A DNA stretch of 64,000 nt from Paramylibacter ulvae. Lineage in GTDB: Bacteria; Pseudomonadota; Alphaproteobacteria; Rhodobacterales; Rhodobacteraceae. Each line of letters begins with the position of its first letter. Positions within the stretch are counted from its first letter, which is position 1. The notes beneath the pieces are model-generated. The model ran no database searches and had not been told where the DNA came from. It saw nothing but the letters and a program-made list of their open reading frames with translations. Location: assembly GCF_014652655.1 (NCBI RefSeq), contig NZ_BMZF01000003.1:1-64000 (forward strand). The letters are read 5' to 3'. Positions 2,816 to 55,170 of this stretch are shown here, piece by piece. A program made the position numbers and the translations under genes.

Positions 2816-3221
2816 ATCGGATCACATGCACTGAACATTTCGCGTGGCGCACGACCTTGGCCGCGGTGGAGCCAAGGAAAATATCCGATAGCCCCAGTTG
2901 ATGTGATGCCATGACAATACAATCGACGTGATTGTCATCTGCATAATTAACGATTGAACGCCCTGAATAGCCATCAATCAGCTCTGCCTTGGCACTTGGG
3001 ATCGCCTTTGCAATGTCATTGAGCGAGTCGAGCGCATATTTGCGCGCCTCTGCCAATGTGGATGCGGGGATTTCAACATTCACGTAATTGGGGATGTTTT
3101 CCAACACATGCAAAATGGTATATTTAGCGGCCTTGCTGCCCAATGTTTTTGCCACTTCAAATGATTTGGCAGTGTCATGCCCATCATCAAAAATGACAGG
3201 GATAAGAATATGATCATACAT
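2814..3221 (-). CDS. Universal stress protein, UspA superfamily
   Basis: A 135-residue single Usp domain beginning MYDHILIPVIF, with the beta-strand VDCIVMASHQ and the nucleotide-loop region GLSDIFLGSTAAKVVRHA near the C-terminus, a form seen in UspF/UspG-like proteins. The ATG at 3221 is preferred over an upstream in-frame codon because AGAGGAGA lies just before it. The family acts in stress survival, often binding ATP. A TTGAT-N4-ATCAA box sits at -41.5 relative to a -10 hexamer, so oxygen-responsive FNR-type activation is predicted. It interrupts the ribosomal locus between rplW and rplB on the opposite strand. Confidence 0.92.
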   Translation of the reverse strand: MYDHILIPVIFDDGHDTAKSFEVAKTLGSKAAKYTILHVLENIPNYVNVEIPASTLAEARKYALDSLNDIAKAIPSAKAELIDGYSGRSIVNYADDNHVDCIVMASHQLGLSDIFLGSTAAKVVRHAKCSVHVIR

Positions 3222-3670
3222 CGTCGTCTCCTCTGAGATCAAAAGTGATAGGGACAGTATACACCATACGGGCAGGGCATGTGTTGATGTGGATCAAGGT
3301 TGGGGGTTATCGGCACAAGAGCGCCTGACCTTGGGGCGGCGATAGATTGCATTCAATCATCGTTGTCAGGCGCGGGACGCTTGTGCGACGTTGGATTGAT
3401 CCCCTATAGTTAAACATCCCGCCAATCCCCAACAAAAACACCACCCAACCACTTGCCACCACCCCCCAACCCTGATACTCCCCACCAATCAGCCGGCTTC
3501 GGATTCGTTCCGAGGCCGTTTGGTTTTGGAATAATTGGGGTTTTCCCTGAATAACCGTGGACCTATGGCGTTATCGCATAAGGGGCCACATACACTTGCG
3601 GACCTACGGGGCCGCGCAAACTTTCGGCCCGAATTTTTCGGTGTCGAACACAAAACGGAAGACAGAAAGA
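3222..3670 (+). other. Intergenic region upstream of rplB with several stem-loops
   Basis: No gene is supported in these 449 bases. Besides the usp promoter they hold: a long imperfect hairpin at 3313-3386 (GCACAAG/CTTGTGC outside, GCGCCTGAC/GTCAGGCGC inside, GATTG/CAATC at the tip); a 10-bp hairpin at 3494-3518 (one wobble); and a bulged hairpin at about 3557-3589 (GTGG/CCAC plus CCTATG/CATAAGG). The last two would lie in an rplB leader. A promoter for rplB must lie here but I cannot place it confidently. Confidence 0.5.
3256..3297 (-). promoter_or_regulatory. Predicted class II FNR/FnrL-dependent promoter of the first usp gene
   Basis: Perfect palindrome TTGATGTGGATCAA at 3284-3297, the FNR/FixK consensus TTGAT-N4-ATCAA. 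Reading leftward, 22 nt separate it from TATACT (complement of 3256-3261). With that hexamer at -12 to -7 the box centre falls at -41.5, the position at which FNR-family activators contact RNA polymerase. No -35 hexamer is visible, as expected for an activated promoter. Confidence 0.75.
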
Positions 3671-4510
3671 ATGGCACTTAAGTCGTATAAACCGACGACG
3701 CCAGGCCAACGTGGGTTGGTTCTGATTGACCGTTCCGAGCTTTGGAAAGGTCGCCCAGTTAAATCACTCGTAGAGGGTTTGACAAAAAACGGCGGTCGTA
3801 ACAATACCGGACGGATCACTATGCGTCGCAAAGGCGGTGGGGCGAAACGCCTGTACCGTATCGTTGACTTTAAACGTAACAAATTTGACGTACCAGCGAC
3901 AGTTGAGCGTATCGAATATGACCCTAACCGGACAGCATTCATCGCCTTGATCCGCTACGAAGATGGTCAACAATCCTACATCATCGCGCCACAACGTTTG
4001 GCAATTGGTGACAAGGTGATCTCTTCTGCTAAGGCTGACGTTAAGCCTGGCAACACAATGCCTTTTACTGGTTTGCCAATCGGTACAATCATTCACAACA
4101 TCGAATTGAAACCAGGTAAGGGTGCACAGCTTGCACGTTCTGCTGGTACTTATGCTCAATTTGTTGGTCGTGATGGTTCCTATGCGCAGATCCGCCTGTC
4201 TTCTGGTGAATTGCGTTTGGTGCGCCAAGAATGCTTGGCCACTGTGGGCGCTGTATCAAACCCTGATCACAGCAACCAAAACCTTGGTAAAGCTGGCCGT
4301 AACCGCCACAAGGGCATCCGCCCGTCTGTGCGTGGTGTGGTTATGAACCCTGTCGATCACCCACATGGTGGTGGTGAGGGTCGTACATCCGGTGGTCGTC
4401 ACCCAGTGACACCATGGGGTAAGCCAACCAAAGGTGCACGCACCCGTTCCAACAAGACCACGGATAAATACATTATCCGTTCGCGTCACGCCAAGAAGAA
4501 GGGTCGTTAA
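3671..4510 (+). CDS. rplB: 50S ribosomal protein L2
   Basis: A 279-residue L2 protein, required for subunit association and peptidyl-transferase activity. Family signatures include [15 protein letters not shown] at the start, [18 protein letters not shown] at about residues 38-56 and [18 protein letters not shown], the RNA-contacting loop with the conserved His. The open frame extends upstream to 3557, but the ATG at 3671 matches the L2 N-terminus and is preceded by AGAAAGA. It restarts the interrupted S10 segment; rpsS follows after 3 nt. Confidence 0.98.
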
Positions 4511-20626: not shown

Positions 20627-21043
20627 ATGCGTCACGCAAGAGGCTATCGCCGCCTAAACCGCACACACGAACACCGTAAAGCGTTGTTCGCGAATATGGC
20701 TGGCTCTTTGATTGAACACGAGCAAATCAAAACGACTTTGCCAAAAGCAAAAGAATTGCGCCCAATCATCGAAAAAATGATCACATTGGCAAAACGCGGC
20801 GATCTGCACGCACGTCGTCAAGCAGCATCAAAATTGAAGCAAGAAGCATATGTTGCGAAATTGTTCGAAATTTTGGGCCCACGCTACAAAGACCGCAGCG
20901 GTGGTTATGTACGCGTATTGAAGGCTGGTTTCCGTTACGGCGACATGGCACCAATGGCGATTATCGAATTTGTTGACCGCGACGTTAACGCCAAAGGCGC
21001 TGGCGACAAGGCACGCGTTGCCGCGGAAGAAATCGAAGAATAA
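20627..21043 (+). CDS. rplQ: 50S ribosomal protein L17
   Basis: A 138-residue L17, located near the tunnel exit. [29 protein letters not shown] at the start is unmistakable, and [25 protein letters not shown] completes the fold. GAAAGAAGGA precedes the ATG. It ends the ribosomal locus; an intrinsic terminator follows. Confidence 0.98.
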
Positions 21044-21313: not shown

Positions 21314-21379
21314 GAACAGGCTCCTGTACGTTTCAAATAACAATTTAAGGTTGACGAGTGGAATTGCAACTTGTCTAAA
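21314..21379 (+). promoter_or_regulatory. Palindrome and possible promoter upstream of luxR
   Basis: GAACAGGCTCCTGTAC (21314-21329) is a near-palindrome with arms ACAGG/CCTGT. Downstream, TTGACG (21351-21356) and TCTAAA (21374-21379) are 17 nt apart. The -10 ends 5 nt before the luxR ATG, which lacks a Shine-Dalgarno, so the mRNA could be leaderless. The palindrome is not at the usual lux-box distance (centre near -64), so its identity as an operator is only a suggestion. Confidence 0.3.
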
Positions 21380-21384
21380 AAGAC

Positions 21385-21994
21385 ATGTCTAGAATAATAG
21401 GTTTAGATAACGAGTTACATCGACTGGAGGCGCTTTCGCCTTCTGGTTATTTTTTGGGAATGCATATTCGATTCACGTCGCCGCTGATTACGCTGCGCAC
21501 GTATTCACAAGAATGGCAGGATCATTACACCGCGAATGTGTACGTGGTGCGTGATCCGTTGATCGCTTGGGCGTTCTCTAAGAAAGGAGTAAATCGCTGG
21601 AGCGAAATTAAGATTCCTGATCCATTCAACATTATGGGTCAGGCTGCAGAGTATGGTATGAAGTATGGTGTTGCTGTGTCGTGTGGCCCGTTAGGCTCGC
21701 GTTCCATTGGGACCGCTTCGCGTAATGATCGTGAGTACAACGATGAAGAGATGGCCGAAGTTAGACGGTTGGTTGAATATCTTCATGAAAAAACAGAACC
21801 CCCCGAGAGCCTGACACAGGCTCAACAGGAGGCTTTGGGACTAATAGCAGCGGGACCGCCATGCGGAAGCGGCGGCACGACTAGGGATTTCAGAAAGTGC
21901 ATTAAAGGTCAGGTTAACATCGGCTAGGAACCGATTGTTGGCACGAACGACTGCCGAAGCAATACAAAGGGCAAAGGACTATCGTCTTTTGTAG
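21385..21994 (+). pseudogene. LuxR-type quorum-sensing regulator, frameshifted before the HTH domain
   Basis: As read, the frame from ATG 21385 stops at 21927 after 180 residues. The N-terminal autoinducer-binding domain is intact, with W44, Y48, D57, P58 and W72 at the spacing of TraR/LuxR proteins. The C-terminus begins an HTH (LTQAQQEALGLIAAG) but then turns to nonsense. From 21857 the +1 frame reads RHAEAAARLGISESALKVRL and continues to a TAG at 21992-21994, clearly the rest of a LuxR HTH. A 1-base insertion or 2-base loss near 21852-21857 therefore separates the sensor from the DNA-binding domain. It lies 51 nt upstream of luxI. Alternatives are a sequencing error or recoding. Confidence 0.82.
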
Positions 21995-22045
21995 GATAAT
22001 GGACCGCCAGCTCAATTAAATACTGGGACAAGCTGGAGGCTTACA

Positions 22046-22633
22046 ATGCAAACGACTACATTATCTTTCGACAATATTCACCGTCATGGTGAATTGTTTT
22101 CAAACTTACTGCGCGCGCGACGCAACTGTTTTATCGTGGAAAAAGAATGGGATCTGCCGGAAGCGGATGGGATGGAATACGATCAGTATGACAACCCTTC
22201 AAGCCGTTGGATCGCCGTTCATGAGAACAGCCAAATCTTGGCGGGTGTACGTATGACACCAACCAATGCACGCTGCGGGATCTATTCATATATGATCCGT
22301 GATGCGCAACGTGGGTTGTTGGATTCAATCCCTTCAAACCTGATGGATACAGAGGCACCGGTTGCGGCAAATATCTGGGAAGGATCGCGCGTATTTGTAT
22401 CAAGCCACGTTCCCGCAGAAAAGCGCATGAAGGTGCAATTGAACCTGATGAGCGAGCTGATCAAAGCGTCACGCGAAAAGGGTGCGACACAACTGTTTGG
22501 TTTGGTGCCTGCATTGTGGCCACGTTGGGTGCGCCGATTGGGTATCGAGGCAAATTCCGCAGGCCCTGTTTTGAAAATTGATGGCGTGCCACACCAGGTC
22601 GCGCAAATGCATTTGGGAACACATTTACACTAA
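22046..22633 (+). CDS. Acyl-homoserine-lactone synthase, LuxI family
   Basis: A 195-residue LuxI-family enzyme making an N-acyl homoserine lactone from S-adenosylmethionine and an acyl donor. Conserved catalytic-region residues are present: R25/R26, F29, W35, D46, D49 (MEYDQYDNP), R69 (AGVRMTPT), E112 and R115 (WEGSRVFV). GGAGG lies 7 nt before the ATG. It follows the frameshifted luxR-type gene, so a signal is probably made while the neighbouring receptor is broken. A 6-bp inverted repeat (CCAGCT/AGCTGG) flanks the leader. The acyl chain cannot be predicted. Confidence 0.93.
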   Translation: MQTTTLSFDNIHRHGELFSNLLRARRNCFIVEKEWDLPEADGMEYDQYDNPSSRWIAVHENSQILAGVRMTPTNARCGIYSYMIRDAQRGLLDSIPSNLMDTEAPVAANIWEGSRVFVSSHVPAEKRMKVQLNLMSELIKASREKGATQLFGLVPALWPRWVRRLGIEANSAGPVLKIDGVPHQVAQMHLGTHLH

Positions 22634-22718: not shown

Positions 22719-24035
22719 ATGGCAGATTTATTCGATCACACCAGTACAGAAAATCAAACGCAAAACGCGCAACGCCCTTTGGCGGATCGCATTCGCCCGC
22801 GTGCGCTTGACGATGTGATTGGCCAGCAACAGGTTGTTGGCCAAGGCGGCCCCTTGCGCACCATGCTGGATGCGGGAAGCCTGTCATCGTTGATATTTTG
22901 GGGCCCGCCAGGGGTTGGGAAAACAACCCTAGCGCGATTACTGGCAGATGAAGTGGATTTACACTTCGTCCAAATCAGCGCGATTTTTTCGGGTGTGGCA
23001 GATTTAAAGAAAGTGTTCGAATCGGCGCGACTGCGCGCGCAAAACGGGCGTGGCACGTTATTATTTGTGGACGAGATCCACCGATTCAACAAAGCGCAAC
23101 AAGACGGATTTTTGCCATTCATGGAGGATGGCACGATTATTCTGGTCGGCGCGACCACAGAAAACCCATCGTTTGAATTAAACGCGGCGTTAATGTCGCG
23201 TGCTCAGGTCATGGTTTTGGAACGCCTGTCATTGGCGGAACTGGAATTGATGTTGCAACGCGCAGAAAAGGAATTGAAAAAATCCTTGCCGCTCACAGGG
23301 CAGGCGCGTGAAACATTGTTGGAAATGGCCGATGGCGATGGGCGCAGCCTGTTAAATTTGGCGGAACAGTGTTTTGGCTGGTCTGATGCAAAAAAGGTTG
23401 ATGTGGATGAATTGGCCAAACGCCTGTCCAAGCGTGCGCCAAAATACGATAAATCGGGTGAAGAACATTACAATCTGATTTCCGCATTGCACAAATCCGT
23501 GCGTGGTTCCGACCCTGATGCCGCACTTTATTGGTTTGCACGGATGCTCAAGGGTGGCGAAGACCCGCGATATTTGGCACGGCGCATCACGCGCATGGCG
23601 GTGGAAGACATCGGTTTGGCCGATCCGCAAGCACAGCATTTATGTTTGCAAGCATGGCAAACATACGAACGCCTTGGCAGCCCAGAGGGCGAATTAGCAT
23701 TGGGGCAAGCGGTGGTTTATCTCGCACTCGCGCCCAAATCCAACGCATCCTATGTGGCGTATAAGGCCGCGATGAAAGCGGCGGAAAAAACAGGGAGCAA
23801 ACCACCCCCCAAACATATCTTGAATGCGCCAACGGCGATGATGAAAGATATTGGTTACGGTGATGGCTATGATTATGATCACGACGCCGAAGATGGGTTT
23901 TCTGGCCAAAATTATTTCCCCGACGATATGGCGCGTGGGATATATTATCTGCCTGTTGATCGCGGGGCAGAGCGGGAAATGAAAAAACGTATTGATTATT
24001 TCGCAAAGCTGCGTGCAAAGCGTGGCAAAGGTTGA
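22719..24035 (+). CDS. rarA: Replication-associated recombination protein RarA (MgsA)
   Basis: A 438-residue AAA+ ATPase related to clamp loaders, acting at stalled replication forks. Domains: Walker A GPPGVGKTT at residues 62-70, Walker B LLFVDEIHRFN near 115-125, sensor-1 GATTENPSFE, then the MgsA C-terminal domain (YNLISALHKSVRGSDPDAALYWFARML). The start at 22719 has no strong Shine-Dalgarno. It leads a unit with crcB, rluC-like and atp12; crcB starts 31 nt after its stop. Confidence 0.95.
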   Translation: MADLFDHTSTENQTQNAQRPLADRIRPRALDDVIGQQQVVGQGGPLRTMLDAGSLSSLIFWGPPGVGKTTLARLLADEVDLHFVQISAIFSGVADLKKVFESARLRAQNGRGTLLFVDEIHRFNKAQQDGFLPFMEDGTIILVGATTENPSFELNAALMSRAQVMVLERLSLAELELMLQRAEKELKKSLPLTGQARETLLEMADGDGRSLLNLAEQCFGWSDAKKVDVDELAKRLSKRAPKYDKSGEEHYNLISALHKSVRGSDPDAALYWFARMLKGGEDPRYLARRITRMAVEDIGLADPQAQHLCLQAWQTYERLGSPEGELALGQAVVYLALAPKSNASYVAYKAAMKAAEKTGSKPPPKHILNAPTAMMKDIGYGDGYDYDHDAEDGFSGQNYFPDDMARGIYYLPVDRGAEREMKKRIDYFAKLRAKRGKG

Positions 24036-50205: not shown

Positions 50206-53024
50206 GACAATGCCTCTTGGGTGCCTTGTTCAATGGCACGGGTCAAACGTTCTGTGATTGTTTTTTGTTTATCGAGTGAGTGGATTTTCATGCCAAACAT
50301 GTCTTTGACGTAAAACACATCCACCGCCTGTGCGCCGTATGTCGCGATCACGGCGCTGGCGATATAGATATTTGCGTTGGACAATGTGCGCGTTAAGTCG
50401 TGCAACAGGGCAGGGCGATCGCGTGTATCGACCTCGATAATTGAATAAAGTTCGGAACCCTCGTTATCGAATGTGATTTCGGTGGGTACGCGAAAATCGC
50501 GCTCGCGTTTTTTGAATTTATCACGATCGCCCAACTCTTTTTTCGCAAGCACTTCACCCAACAGCGTTTTTTGAATCATATCGCGCAATCGTTTGATACG
50601 TGTGGTTTGATACGGTTTTTCATCCGCATCTTGAATCCAGAAAATTGCCGTGGCGAACCCATCGGTTGATGTGTAGGTGCGCGCATCCACAACATTAGCC
50701 CCAACCAGCGCAAGTGCGCCCGCGATACGCGAAAAAATACCAGGGTGGTCTTGCATCACGAAACACGCGCGTGTCGCATCGCGATCAACATCGGGGACGA
50801 TTTCACTGGCAAGTTTTTCATCACCGATATCGCGCAGCATATTGGCAAATGTAATATGTGATTGATGATCCAACCCTTGCCAATATGGATCGTAATGACG
50901 TTCCATTTCGATTTCCAGATCGTCATCTGACCAATCGGCAAGCTTGGCTTGCAATTGTTCCTTTGCCTCGTCAACGCGGTTGTAAACGCCAATTTTGTCA
51001 ACGCCTGCTTTGATGCTGGAACGCGTCGCACGGTAAAGATCGCGCAAAAGCTGTGCTTTCCAATTGTTCCAAGTGTTCGGGCCAACCCCGCGAATATCGC
51101 AAACCGTGAGCGCGGTTAGCAGGTTCAGGCGCGATGTGGTTTTGACATCTTTGGCAAAATTTATCACCGTTCGCGGATCCGATAAATCGCGTTTTTGGGC
51201 AACGTCTGACATCAACAAATGGTTCAACACCAGCCAAACAACGGTTTCAGTTTCTTTTTCGCTTAACCCAAGGCGCGGGCATATTTGTTCGGCGATTTTT
51301 GCACCCGCGATTGAATGATCTTCGGGCAAACCTTTGCCGATATCATGAAGCAGTAGTGCCACATACAAAACCTTGCGATCGATGGTGCCTTTGAACACTT
51401 CTGTCAGAATTGGCAAATCTTCCTTTAGGTCGCCAAGTTCCAATTTGGATAGTCCGGATATGCATTGAATCGTGTGTTCATCCACCGTGTAATGATGGTA
51501 ATTGTTAAACTGCATTAATGCGATAATGCGTTGAAACTCTGGGATAAACGCCCCCAACACACCCAGTTCATTCATACGGCGCAACGCGCGTTCTGGATTG
51601 CCGTAATCCAACAGTAATTCCAGAAATATGCGCTGCGCTTCTGGTGAATTGCGCACATTGTCGTCAATCAAATCCAGATTGTCCGCCATAAGGCGCATCG
51701 CATCGGGGTGAATTAAAATGTCAGAGCTAAGTGCAACTTGAAACAAGCGCATGATGTTCAGCGGATCGGCCAAGAATTTATCATCATCGGCAATGGCCAA
51801 ACGGTTATTTACAAAATTATACCCATCTGGCGTTTCGTCTTCATCGTCGCTGCTTCGGTTCCACGGCATCGCATCCAACAAGCGTTTGCCGATTGATGGA
51901 ATGTCTTTCACATGCTGTGCCTCTAACATGGATAAAAACACGCGTGTCAGATCGCCAACATGGGTGGCTTCGCGAAAATAATCCTGCATGAAACTTTCAA
52001 CGCCGCGTAATCCATCCGTGTCGCGATATCCCAGACGTTTGGAAATATCGACCTGTGCATCAAAGGTAAGCTGTTCTGTCGAGCGTTTGTTATACAGATG
52101 CAGATGACAGCGTACCGTCCACAAAAACGCATGCGCTTCTTCAAAGCGTTCCAATTCACTGGTAGTGAAATAGCCCTGATCGACCATCGCTTGGGTGGTT
52201 TGGGCGTGGCTGACATGTTTGGTGATCCAATACATGGTTTGCAAATCACGTAACCCGCCTTTGCCCTCTTTCACATTGGGTTCCAGCATATAACGCTGAC
52301 CACCCTGACGAATATGGCGGTTTTCGCGTTCAATCAGTTTTTCTTCGACATAATTTTTAGCTGTACCACTAAACAGTTTTGCCCATAGTTTACGATCAAG
52401 TTGATTTGCCAATCGTTCATCGCCCACTAAATAGCGGCTTTCGAGGAGGGCGGTTTTAATGGTTTGATCTTCGCCGCCCAATTTGATGCATTCATCAATC
52501 GTGCGCGTGGCATGGCCAATTTTCAATCGCATATCCCACAGGATATAAAGCATGGATTCAACCACGCTTTCCGACCATGCGGATAATTTATATGGCGATA
52601 GGAACAAAAGATCGACATCGGAAAACGGTGCCATTTCCGCCCGCCCGTAACCGCCAACACCCATCACGCACAGATGTTCGTTTTTGGTGGGTGTTGGGTT
52701 GGGGTGTAAAATATCGGTTGCAGCCATAAAGGCAAATTCAATGATACGATCGGTGAGCAAACAATAAGAATTGATTGCCTCCATCCCGGACCACGGTGCG
52801 TCGCTTAATGCGGTTTCAATCGCCGCACGACCAGCGGCGTTTTGGGCGCTTAACAATTCGGAAATCTCGCTACGCACTTGTTTGCCCGCTTGTTTCTTGG
52901 CAGTGATTTGCGTGTAGCGTTTTTGCACAAATTTTGTGTCAAAAATAGCGTCGGGCGCACAGATCAGTGCGCCCGTTACCGGCCCGTAGGCTTGGTTTTG
53001 TGTGTCCTTAACTACCAGCGCCAC
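50202..53024 (-). CDS. glnD: Bifunctional uridylyltransferase/uridylyl-removing enzyme GlnD
   Basis: A 940-residue nitrogen sensor that adds or removes UMP from PII proteins according to glutamine level. Domain order: nucleotidyltransferase (GVGGYGRAEMAPFSDVDLLFL, about 123-143), the GlnD helical domain, HD hydrolase (ALLLHDIGKGLPEDHS), and two C-terminal ACT domains (FSRIAGALALVGANVVDARTY and PALLHDLTRTLSNANIYIASA) that bind glutamine. The start is GTG at 53024, overlapping the end of the upstream lipoprotein gene by 17 bases. Confidence 0.96.
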   Translation of the reverse strand: MALVVKDTQNQAYGPVTGALICAPDAIFDTKFVQKRYTQITAKKQAGKQVRSEISELLSAQNAAGRAAIETALSDAPWSGMEAINSYCLLTDRIIEFAFMAATDILHPNPTPTKNEHLCVMGVGGYGRAEMAPFSDVDLLFLSPYKLSAWSESVVESMLYILWDMRLKIGHATRTIDECIKLGGEDQTIKTALLESRYLVGDERLANQLDRKLWAKLFSGTAKNYVEEKLIERENRHIRQGGQRYMLEPNVKEGKGGLRDLQTMYWITKHVSHAQTTQAMVDQGYFTTSELERFEEAHAFLWTVRCHLHLYNKRSTEQLTFDAQVDISKRLGYRDTDGLRGVESFMQDYFREATHVGDLTRVFLSMLEAQHVKDIPSIGKRLLDAMPWNRSSDDEDETPDGYNFVNNRLAIADDDKFLADPLNIMRLFQVALSSDILIHPDAMRLMADNLDLIDDNVRNSPEAQRIFLELLLDYGNPERALRRMNELGVLGAFIPEFQRIIALMQFNNYHHYTVDEHTIQCISGLSKLELGDLKEDLPILTEVFKGTIDRKVLYVALLLHDIGKGLPEDHSIAGAKIAEQICPRLGLSEKETETVVWLVLNHLLMSDVAQKRDLSDPRTVINFAKDVKTTSRLNLLTALTVCDIRGVGPNTWNNWKAQLLRDLYRATRSSIKAGVDKIGVYNRVDEAKEQLQAKLADWSDDDLEIEMERHYDPYWQGLDHQSHITFANMLRDIGDEKLASEIVPDVDRDATRACFVMQDHPGIFSRIAGALALVGANVVDARTYTSTDGFATAIFWIQDADEKPYQTTRIKRLRDMIQKTLLGEVLAKKELGDRDKFKKRERDFRVPTEITFDNEGSELYSIIEVDTRDRPALLHDLTRTLSNANIYIASAVIATYGAQAVDVFYVKDMFGMKIHSLDKQKTITERLTRAIEQGTQEALS

Positions 53025-54204
53025 TGAACGAAGTCGGTGCGCCAGAAATAATGCGGAACGTTTTTCCGTTGCCTTCGGCGATGGCTAGGGCGCGTTCATT
53101 CGTGCCGTCTTTGTTGAAACGAAACACACCTGTTGTTCCACGAAACCCGCCGCGACGTGTTAATGCGGATTTTGTTAATGCTTTGCTGCTACCTGTTTGC
53201 AACAGCTTTGCAACCGCAGAAACCCCGTCATAGGCAAGACCAGCCAACGGATGTGGCGCCCCGCCATATGCTTGGGTAAAGCGCGCGTTAAACTGTTGCG
53301 CGGATACGATATCGGGGGTTGTGAACCAACCGCCAACCAAACCAGGTGCGGCAAGGTTCGTGCTTGGGATATCCCAACGTGTGATGCCCAGATATTTCAC
53401 GCTCGCAGGAGACACACCCGCCGCTGGCAACATACGCCCAACAAATGGCAGACCAGTATCGGAATCGGCCGTCAAAACAATCGCCGTTGTCCCTGATGAT
53501 TTCACGTTGCTCGCGATGGCTGGTGCGGCTGCGGATAATCCAGCGGGGGACATTTCATAACTGTAATTACCAGTATAGGTTACATTGGCCTTTGCCGCTG
53601 CGGATTTCACCGCACTTGCAGAAATTTCCCCAACTGTATTTTGCGCGGAAACTGTTGCAATTCGGCGATAACCTTTGGAGGCAGCGTATTTCACAACACG
53701 GTTTGCTTTGTTTTCGAATGTGTCGCCCATGACGAACACATTACCACCCGCAATTGCGGTGTTATTGGAAAAGCTAAGAACATTTACGTTCTGGGATGCA
53801 ACAGCATTGCCCGTGGCGTTAACCGATTCTGCAAACAGCGGCCCAACGATGATTTTTGCACCATTCGCGACGGCAGTCTTTGCAACGCCAGCTGCTTGGC
53901 CCGAATTTCCGCCTGTGCTGTAAACCGTTAGATCAATTTTAACATCGGAATAATCTTGTGTAGCAAGACGTGCCGCTTGGACAAAGTTATTCGCCAATTT
54001 TTCAAGATTTCCATCACCTGAACCCGCAGGCACCAATAGTGCCACCTTTACCGTTTCATTGGCATTGATTGTTTGCCCTGTGTCCTCCGTGTCGCTCCCG
54101 ATGCTTGGAGTTATTGGTACTTCGCAAGCTGAAAGCAAAATACCAATTGCTGCGAAACCGATTGATTGGCGAATTTTAGAGACCGTCCCAAATCCCTGAT
54201 GCAT
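53008..54204 (-). CDS. LpoA/LppC-like periplasmic lipoprotein (type 1 periplasmic-binding fold)
   Basis: A 398-residue lipoprotein with a lipobox LLSAC (Cys near 28) after a signal peptide, and a type 1 solute-binding fold (VALLVPAGSGDGNLEKLA, IIVGPLFAESV, RIATVSAQNTVGE, LAGLAYDGVSAVAKLL). Alphaproteobacterial relatives are called penicillin-binding protein activators by similarity to LpoA; a branched-chain amino-acid receptor is the main alternative, but no transporter is adjacent. It is divergent from rsmI, a pairing that recurs with LpoA in many bacteria. Confidence 0.85.
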   Translation of the reverse strand: MHQGFGTVSKIRQSIGFAAIGILLSACEVPITPSIGSDTEDTGQTINANETVKVALLVPAGSGDGNLEKLANNFVQAARLATQDYSDVKIDLTVYSTGGNSGQAAGVAKTAVANGAKIIVGPLFAESVNATGNAVASQNVNVLSFSNNTAIAGGNVFVMGDTFENKANRVVKYAASKGYRRIATVSAQNTVGEISASAVKSAAAKANVTYTGNYSYEMSPAGLSAAAPAIASNVKSSGTTAIVLTADSDTGLPFVGRMLPAAGVSPASVKYLGITRWDIPSTNLAAPGLVGGWFTTPDIVSAQQFNARFTQAYGGAPHPLAGLAYDGVSAVAKLLQTGSSKALTKSALTRRGGFRGTTGVFRFNKDGTNERALAIAEGNGKTFRIISGAPTSFSGAGS

Positions 54205-54312
54205 GATGTTACCCCGTTTAAGCTAGAAAATAGTGACTCGTTTGTGCGAAAAGGTACGAAATGCCCATGCAGAGTGCAACAGTGGCAAGCATACAAAGGC
54301 GGATTTAATATA

Positions 54313-55170
54313 ATGACGGATAAAAAGCTGCCAGTTGGGCTGTATTTGGTATCAACACCGATTGGCGCAGCGCGTGACATTACATTGCGCGCTTTGGATA
54401 TCTTGGCCAACGCAGATGTGTTGGCCGCAGAAGATACGCGCAACACACGCCGATTGCTGGATATTCATGGCATTTCGCTGGGGTCGCGACGGATCATTCC
54501 ATATCATGATCATAACGGCGCTGGGCAACGGCCAAAATTGCTGGGTGCCATTCAAGACGGAAAAACCGTTGCTTACGTTTCGGATGCGGGTACACCGCTG
54601 ATTGCAGATCCTGGATATGGGCTTGCAAAGGAAGCGGGCAAACAGGGCTTGGATGTGTTCGCAGCGCCAGGAGCTTCCGCGTTGCTGGCCGCATTGGTGG
54701 TGTCTGGCATGCCAACGGATCGATTTATGTTTGCTGGCTTTGCGCCCAATAAACAAAAGGCAAAACAAAATTTCTTGTTAGAGTTCGCAGAGCTGCGATC
54801 AACCCTTGTGCTATATGAATCGCCCAAACGTGTGTGCGATACGCTTGAGCAAATGGTGCAAATTTACGGTCCCTCACGCCAAGTTGCATTGTGTCGCGAA
54901 TTAACCAAAAAGTTTGAACAAATTGTGCGCGGAACGCTCGAAGATGTATTCGCGCAACTGAAAGATGTACCGACAATAAAAGGTGAATGTGTGTTGGTTT
55001 TGGGCCCGCCCGTGCCCAAAGAGATTGCAGATATCGAGATTGAAGAAAAAATTAGGGAATTGTTAGGGGAACATAAAGTAAAAACGGTGGCACAGATCGC
55101 GGCGGATGAATTTAATATCCCGCGCAAACAAGCATACGATATCGCGCTAAAGGTGAAAAAAAACGAATGA
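54313..55170 (+). CDS. rsmI: 16S rRNA (cytidine(1402)-2'-O)-methyltransferase
   Basis: A 285-residue SAM-dependent methyltransferase that modifies C1402 in the decoding centre. LYLVSTPIGAARDITLRALDIL, AEDTRNTRRLLDIHGI, VSDAGTPLIADPGYGL and PGASALLAALVVSGMPTDRFMFAGFAP form the tetrapyrrole-methylase-type fold. ATG 54313 is the family start; the frame is open further upstream but that part lacks homology. It overlaps yraN by ATGA. Confidence 0.96.
   Translation: MTDKKLPVGLYLVSTPIGAARDITLRALDILANADVLAAEDTRNTRRLLDIHGISLGSRRIIPYHDHNGAGQRPKLLGAIQDGKTVAYVSDAGTPLIADPGYGLAKEAGKQGLDVFAAPGASALLAALVVSGMPTDRFMFAGFAPNKQKAKQNFLLEFAELRSTLVLYESPKRVCDTLEQMVQIYGPSRQVALCRELTKKFEQIVRGTLEDVFAQLKDVPTIKGECVLVLGPPVPKEIADIEIEEKIRELLGEHKVKTVAQIAADEFNIPRKQAYDIALKVKKNE

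Follow-up and report, generated by a model that had tools for sequence, protein, structure and literature searches.

The window, a 64,000-nucleotide stretch of DNA from Paramylibacter ulvae, is part of a 3.17-Mb genome rated 100% complete, available as a draft assembly of 25 contigs. The locus considered here has the gene order rplQ-luxR-luxI-rarA, with all four genes on the forward strand, and the reading frame of luxR is broken in the assembled sequence:

20627..21043, forward strand: rplQ (ribosomal protein L17; Pfam Ribosomal_L17, 5.3e-40), the upstream neighbour that fixes the gene order
21385..21927, forward strand: frameshifted luxR gene of the gtaR type, encoding the AHL-binding domain (residues 1-157) followed by 23 unrelated residues (ORF, Pfam, alignment, AlphaFold2)
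21853..21858, forward strand: frameshift site, where the window is 2 nt shorter than three aligned relatives (nucleotide alignment)
21857..21994, forward strand: out-of-frame HTH remnant, with a protein sequence identical to that of A. kogurei (translation, comparison)
22046..22633, forward strand: luxI, a gtaI-type AHL synthase gene, full length, 195 aa (Autoind_synth, 1.2e-12; a sequence search also finds solved AHL synthases)
22719..24035, forward strand: rarA/mgsA-type AAA ATPase gene, the downstream neighbour (MgsA_C, 5e-67)

The gene order and the 43–59% identity of the window LuxR to 45 of the 49 aligned relatives point to the gtaR/gtaI group as the probable family of this pair; the luxR-luxI pairs of R. 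capsulatus and D. shibae are presumably located after rplQ as well. A Rhodobacterales luxR-luxI pair with conserved gene order is known as gtaR/gtaI or luxR1/luxI1 (PMC11655674), and an L17 neighbour appears among the Roseobacter luxRI arrangements (PMC3824088). As in GtaR/GtaI of R. capsulatus and LuxR1/LuxI1 of D. shibae, a short LuxR is followed by LuxI in the gene order conserved for the group (PMC11655674); the window LuxR differs from both in lacking the HTH through a frameshift. Cereibacter sphaeroides, with gtaR but no gtaI (PMC11655674), also has one half of the same pair gone but is the mirror image of the window: there the synthase was lost and the regulator kept, whereas here the regulator is broken and the synthase kept. 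The gene transfer agent marker GTA_TIM (PF13547) was not found in the genome by a profile search, and the pair is therefore not connected here with such agents.

The nearest named relative among the fetched loci is Amylibacter kogurei 4G11 (contig NZ_MDGM01000012.1), now classed in Paramylibacter, where P. ulvae is the one further named species; its luxR sequence is the same as in genome G020. Over 3.6 kb around the locus, the window and A. kogurei are 94% identical at the DNA level, and the two LuxR sensors are 99% identical.

The break in luxR

The ORF at 21385-21927 encodes 180 amino acids that follow the LuxR sensor through residue 157 (ending in LIAAG) and then continue as PPCGSGG and further unrelated sequence. 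The C-terminal HTH (GerE) is absent from luxR's own reading frame and lies one frame over, where the frame from 21857 encodes RHAEAAARLGISESALKVRL and onward, with no internal stop before the stop codon at 21992-21994. A preliminary description of this DNA had proposed just this arrangement, a luxR frame that ceases to be LuxR-like after LIAAG and a displaced, stop-free HTH running to 21994, so that the sensor is split from the DNA-binding domain beside a full-length synthase, and translation bears it out. The same description allowed for an indel of either +1 or -2. In A. kogurei and in genomes G019 and G016, the alignment has two extra nucleotides at the codon after LIAAG and all 203 residues in one frame; because the window is 2 nt short relative to all three, the change is a deletion of two rather than an insertion of one. 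The reported distance of 51 nt to luxI is correct from the stop of the HTH frame, but from the stop actually in use, at 21927, it is 118 nt. A homopolymer slip was rejected as the cause, the run length being unchanged by the two missing nucleotides.

A free-standing HTH product was rejected as well: the remnant frame has no ATG or GTG, and its only potential starts are TTG codons (21935, 21938 and 21989) that lie inside the HTH itself. In Pfam, the 180-residue product matches Autoind_bind (2e-11) and no other family at E <= 0.1; the intact LuxR of A. kogurei additionally matches GerE and Sigma70_r4_2, both just below the Pfam cut-offs. The truncated protein is therefore likely to be devoid of DNA binding, to judge from its domain content.

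The sensor part appears intact. The autoinducer-binding domain (PF03472) includes six residues, W44, Y48, D57, P58, W72 and G95, that are invariant in a 50-protein alignment, the window included, which agrees with the earlier statement that the signal-binding residues are kept; matched by eye, they are read as the counterparts of the TraR pocket residues W57, Y61, D70, P71, W85 and G113 (PMC11655674). An AlphaFold2 model of the 180-residue product built on this alignment has a mean pLDDT of 88.2; its 10-residue blocks score 90-99 between residues 11 and 150 and under 50 from residue 160 to 180, so that the sensor part should fold and the new tail should be disordered. Given this confident model and the retained pocket residues, the stub may bind AHL.

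Recent mutation or sequence error

The comparison set consisted of 109 loci fetched from other genomes, a few of which are paralogues from other gene neighbourhoods. The sensor and the HTH are in one frame in 104 of these (100 distinct sequences); three of the remaining five are cut by contig ends (L067, L074, L080) and two have no luxR (L064, L095). The frameshift is thus peculiar to the window genome among the loci compared. In L064 and L095, around positions 3001-3705, a luxI of this family stands without luxR near histidine-kinase-like ORFs, joined in L064 by response-regulator-like ORFs (read from translations). Given this neighbourhood, the two were rejected as parallel losses of luxR; orphan luxI genes with histidine kinases upstream have been described (PMC3824088).

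The break, if real, looks recent. Compared with A. kogurei, the sensor carries 15 synonymous differences and 1 nonsynonymous difference, and the stranded HTH carries 5 and 0, respectively. Had the HTH been neutral over the whole branch, about 6.9 nonsynonymous changes would be expected by a rough estimate; because there are none, the break would, on this rough reckoning, span at most about 0.43 of the branch since the split from A. kogurei. Synonymous divergence from A. kogurei differs along the locus, with dS of about 0.15 for luxR (21385-21991) and 0.55 for luxI (22046-22630); the low value for luxR relative to luxI may reflect either constraint or local recombination.

The lack of decay on either side of the break is also what a sequencing or assembly error would leave behind, in which case the cell has an unbroken luxR and an ordinary quorum-sensing system. 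The 104 intact loci, with none of the other five frameshifted, are compatible with such an error, and a draft assembly of 25 contigs could contain one wrong indel. Nevertheless, the missing bases do not alter the length of a homopolymer run, and losing 2 nt away from such runs is not a typical fault of assemblies made from short-read, pyrosequencing or nanopore data.

The frequency of frame changes was assessed by matching mechanically defined ORFs of at least 100 aa between 400 kb of A. kogurei and all 356 kb of the contig that holds the window. Of the 377 A. kogurei ORFs, 133 have no match and 244 do. Among the latter, a single frame covers at least 90% of the ORF in 229, the match is partial or below 60% identity in 11, and a frame change was flagged in 4. 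The luxR gene is among these four and is alone there in having both pieces at 99-100% identity; in the other three, N-terminal pieces of 53-90 residues match at 68-77%. In the reverse direction, the 334 ORFs of the window contig comprise 88 unmatched, 230 covered, 11 partial and 5 flagged (246 matched), the five being luxR and four others, one of which, a 440-aa ORF at 199715-201037 of the window contig with a possible frame change relative to A. kogurei, is likewise split between frames into two pieces of near identity (97 and 98%). ORFs with a stop inside the matched stretch (16 forward, 12 reverse) were classed by coverage. A further possible frame change between A. kogurei and the window's contig involves a 334-aa ORF, at about 52587-53587 of G020:C12, opposite window positions 54166-55170. 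Frame breaks are therefore few in the contig, yet the one in luxR is not wholly alone. The rarity of the flags (4 of 244 matched ORFs one way and 5 of 246 the other) argues against an error in luxR, which we consider unlikely, although far from negligible.

Hairpin and dyad flanking luxR

Two elements around luxR bear on what a frameshift would do. The first lies in the gap between luxR and luxI:

22001..22041, forward strand: hairpin in the luxR-luxI gap, the 3' arm of which holds the luxI Shine-Dalgarno sequence GGAGG at 22035-22039 (from folding; a role in coupling is proposed)

In 90 of 93 distinct loci, 45-79 nt separate the luxR stop from the start of luxI, and the 5' arm of the window hairpin begins shortly after the normal luxR stop (about 7-18 nt past it). 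Gaps were examined in 89 loci (the window and 88 others), of which 80 have a clear Shine-Dalgarno (SD) sequence and a length of at most 100 nt, leaving 48 after removal of redundancy. In these 48, pairing between the SD and the stretch 4-19 nt past the luxR stop has a mean probability of 0.63, compared with 0.27 in dinucleotide shuffles; 36 exceed their own shuffles (p 1e-7, for related sequences that are not independent). Pairing of the SD with later gap nucleotides is depleted (0.15 versus 0.37 in shuffles). In 59 other co-directional gene gaps used as a control (37 from the window contig and A. kogurei, 22 from other loci), no such effect is seen (0.242 versus 0.235), although in five of the 59, the SD pairs with this stretch at least as strongly as in the window (0.80). 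Total SD pairing is not special, reaching at least 0.795 in 5 of 16 gaps of the window genome and 3 of 22 gaps of A. kogurei; only its position is.

Other tests are less telling. In a weak arm-swap test, a gap's own arms beat the mean swap in 52 of 80 cases, and when a ribosome footprint is masked, the window's SD still pairs at about 0.5, down from 0.76. RNAalifold finds 10 pairs and no double-sided change in 13 gaps and no structure in 22 more varied ones; the gaps are too divergent for one alignment. A covariance model built from the 13 gaps and run against 77 loci recovers those 13 plus 18 weak hits that include luxI gaps, and so barely leaves its own clade. None of the seven Rfam matches near the locus (E up to 5) comes close to its gathering score. 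Taken by position of pairing, the predicted SD-masking hairpin is conserved as a class beyond chance across the loci.

Because the 5' arm falls within the region that a ribosome halted at the luxR stop would occupy, termination of luxR translation would open the luxI start, in keeping with an RNA-unfolding model of translational coupling (PMC12548453). The stop of the frameshifted gene at 21927 is 67 nt before the normal one, so that the hairpin would stay shut, and the frameshift may thus lower luxI translation.

The second element overlaps the start of luxR:

21351..21388, forward strand: luxR promoter region, with a -35-like TTGACG (21351-21356), a 17-nt spacer and a -10-like TCTAAA (21374-21379) (inspection)
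21369-21388, forward strand: dyad ACTTGTCT-AAAA-AGACATGT over the luxR start codon, a probable GtaR operator (from conservation)

The luxR promoter is strongly conserved, and the dyad ends on the start codon. The core of the dyad is TGTCT-N4-AGACA, with the final base being the A of the luxR ATG, and the window copy is perfect. At most one mismatch to this core is present in 39 of 100 luxR upstream regions, 37 of them with the ATG in the same register, as opposed to 7 of 500 shuffled controls; the other 61 regions have the core with 2 to 4 mismatches. The dyad is the probable GtaR operator, or autorepressor site, by virtue of this conservation, although it overlaps the -10 element and the start codon, both of which are constrained for other reasons. 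The promoter spacing would place the transcription start at or near the ATG, so that the luxR mRNA would be leaderless or nearly so. One further exact copy of the dyad was found in the genome, inside an ORF (C12:39487). A genome scan gave 10 and 14 matches for the pattern and more for the reversed control (39 and 31), and therefore no regulon can be read from the dyad.

GtaR has been reported to bind its own promoter across the -10 element and the transcription start (PMC6363796), and the same paper lists Leung 2012, whose title states negative regulation of gtaRI in R. capsulatus. By analogy with this namesake, reported to repress its own operon, the window LuxR would, when intact, be an autorepressor, and the break would be expected in the first place to relieve autorepression, not to remove an activator. 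The kind of mutation seen here is not new; follow-up would be most worthwhile for the hairpin and the dyad.

The truncated sensor and its possible effects

These observations are best accommodated, with a probability that we put at about 0.62, by a recent 2-nt deletion in a chromosomal gtaR-type luxR gene that removed the HTH and left a 180-residue signal-binding stub, with effects on the operon that can be proposed from the flanking elements. With the DNA-binding domain lost, the stub would no longer repress its own operon at the dyad, and transcription of luxR-luxI would become constitutive. At the same time, with ribosomes ending 67 nt early, the hairpin at the luxI ribosome-binding site would remain unopened, lowering luxI translation. 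The stub may, as a side effect in the manner of TrlR and CerN, bind AHL and tie up the genome's two other LuxR proteins in inactive dimers.

Those two proteins are intact: the window genome encodes a solo LuxR (C2) and another beside a second LuxI (C11). The suggestion that the cell makes a signal without its cognate regulator accordingly stands in that luxR is split next to a full-length synthase but is weakened by the two LuxR proteins that remain intact and by the second luxR-luxI pair. That a sensor-only product could act on other LuxR proteins gains the precedents of TrlR and CerN.

Like these two, the stub is an AHL-binding domain without an HTH, with the sensor modelled confidently by AlphaFold2 and recognized by Pfam. 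TrlR, encoded on Agrobacterium octopine Ti plasmids, is a frameshift allele of traR with a dominant negative effect (PMC6341043, PMC3907764), which retains AHL binding and dimerization and loses DNA binding; however, its gene is an extra copy, accompanied by an intact traR and expressed from a mannopine-induced operon, whereas in the window, the sole copy of its luxR is broken. CerN, an HTH-less LuxR in the Rhodobacterales, blocks the full-length CerM in Cereibacter sphaeroides when AHL is present (PMC11655674), but it has its own gene next to cerM, shares 31% identity with CerM and is not a recent gtaR frameshift.

Of seven divergent LuxR pairs examined in related genomes, five have one shortened member and two (L154, L155) have both members full-length. 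The shortened proteins, each encoded divergently beside a full-length LuxR, are:

L029, 1471-1953: 161 aa, Autoind_bind, no HTH at E <= 0.01
L032, 1471-1950: 160 aa, Autoind_bind, no HTH at E <= 0.01
L151, 794-1276: 161 aa, Autoind_bind, no HTH at E <= 0.01
L152, 848-1333: 162 aa, Autoind_bind, no HTH at E <= 0.01
L153, 292-717: 141 aa, classed by length only

These shortened/full-length pairs are CerN/CerM-like in architecture; the L029 genome belongs to the same genus as the window.

A stronger version of this side effect would have the stub as a selected antagonist, an incipient CerN or TrlR that binds AHL and sequesters other LuxR proteins in inactive pairs. Four natural HTH-less LuxR proteins (L029, L032, L151, L152) end within a few residues of the point at which the window's sensor is cut, CerN and the frameshift allele TrlR provide models of such activity (PMC11655674, PMC6341043), and the genome offers two intact candidate partners. 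There is, however, no trace of selection, with one nonsynonymous change in the sensor and none in the dead HTH; the HTH-less relatives are encoded by genes of their own next to a full-length LuxR gene, none of them a broken gtaR; two of the seven divergent pairs have no shortened member; and of the candidate partners, the C2 protein is only 31-34% identical to the window LuxR, and the C11 protein was not found in a search with it. We regard selection for antagonism as improbable.

The least tenable alternative is programmed recoding that would yield some full-length LuxR across the junction, which could draw on the open HTH frame and its unchanged protein sequence but is extremely improbable and was rejected, since by inspection, a +1 slip at the junction codons gives the peptidyl-tRNA no re-pairing, and 104 intact loci manage without recoding. 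Of the three possibilities raised in the preliminary description, a recent break, an error or a break rescued by recoding, the first is the most likely, the second less so, and the last finds no support.

Returning to the recent deletion, a broader and distinctly more speculative proposal, which we hold to be rather unlikely as a whole, is that in many Rhodobacterales, an SD-masking hairpin lets translation of gtaR license that of gtaI, and that the frameshift would uncouple the two genes, derepress the operon and create a CerN/TrlR-like antagonist in one step. The literature searched, seen in part, yielded nothing on a hairpin in the luxR-luxI gap or on this frameshifted luxR. If the hairpin couples the translation of luxR and luxI, it would constitute an extra layer of quorum-sensing control that is absent from that literature. 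If the deletion is real, the window genome would be a natural experiment on the contribution of the gtaR half, and an HTH-less quorum-sensing antagonist could arise in a single step in the order in which CerN is established.
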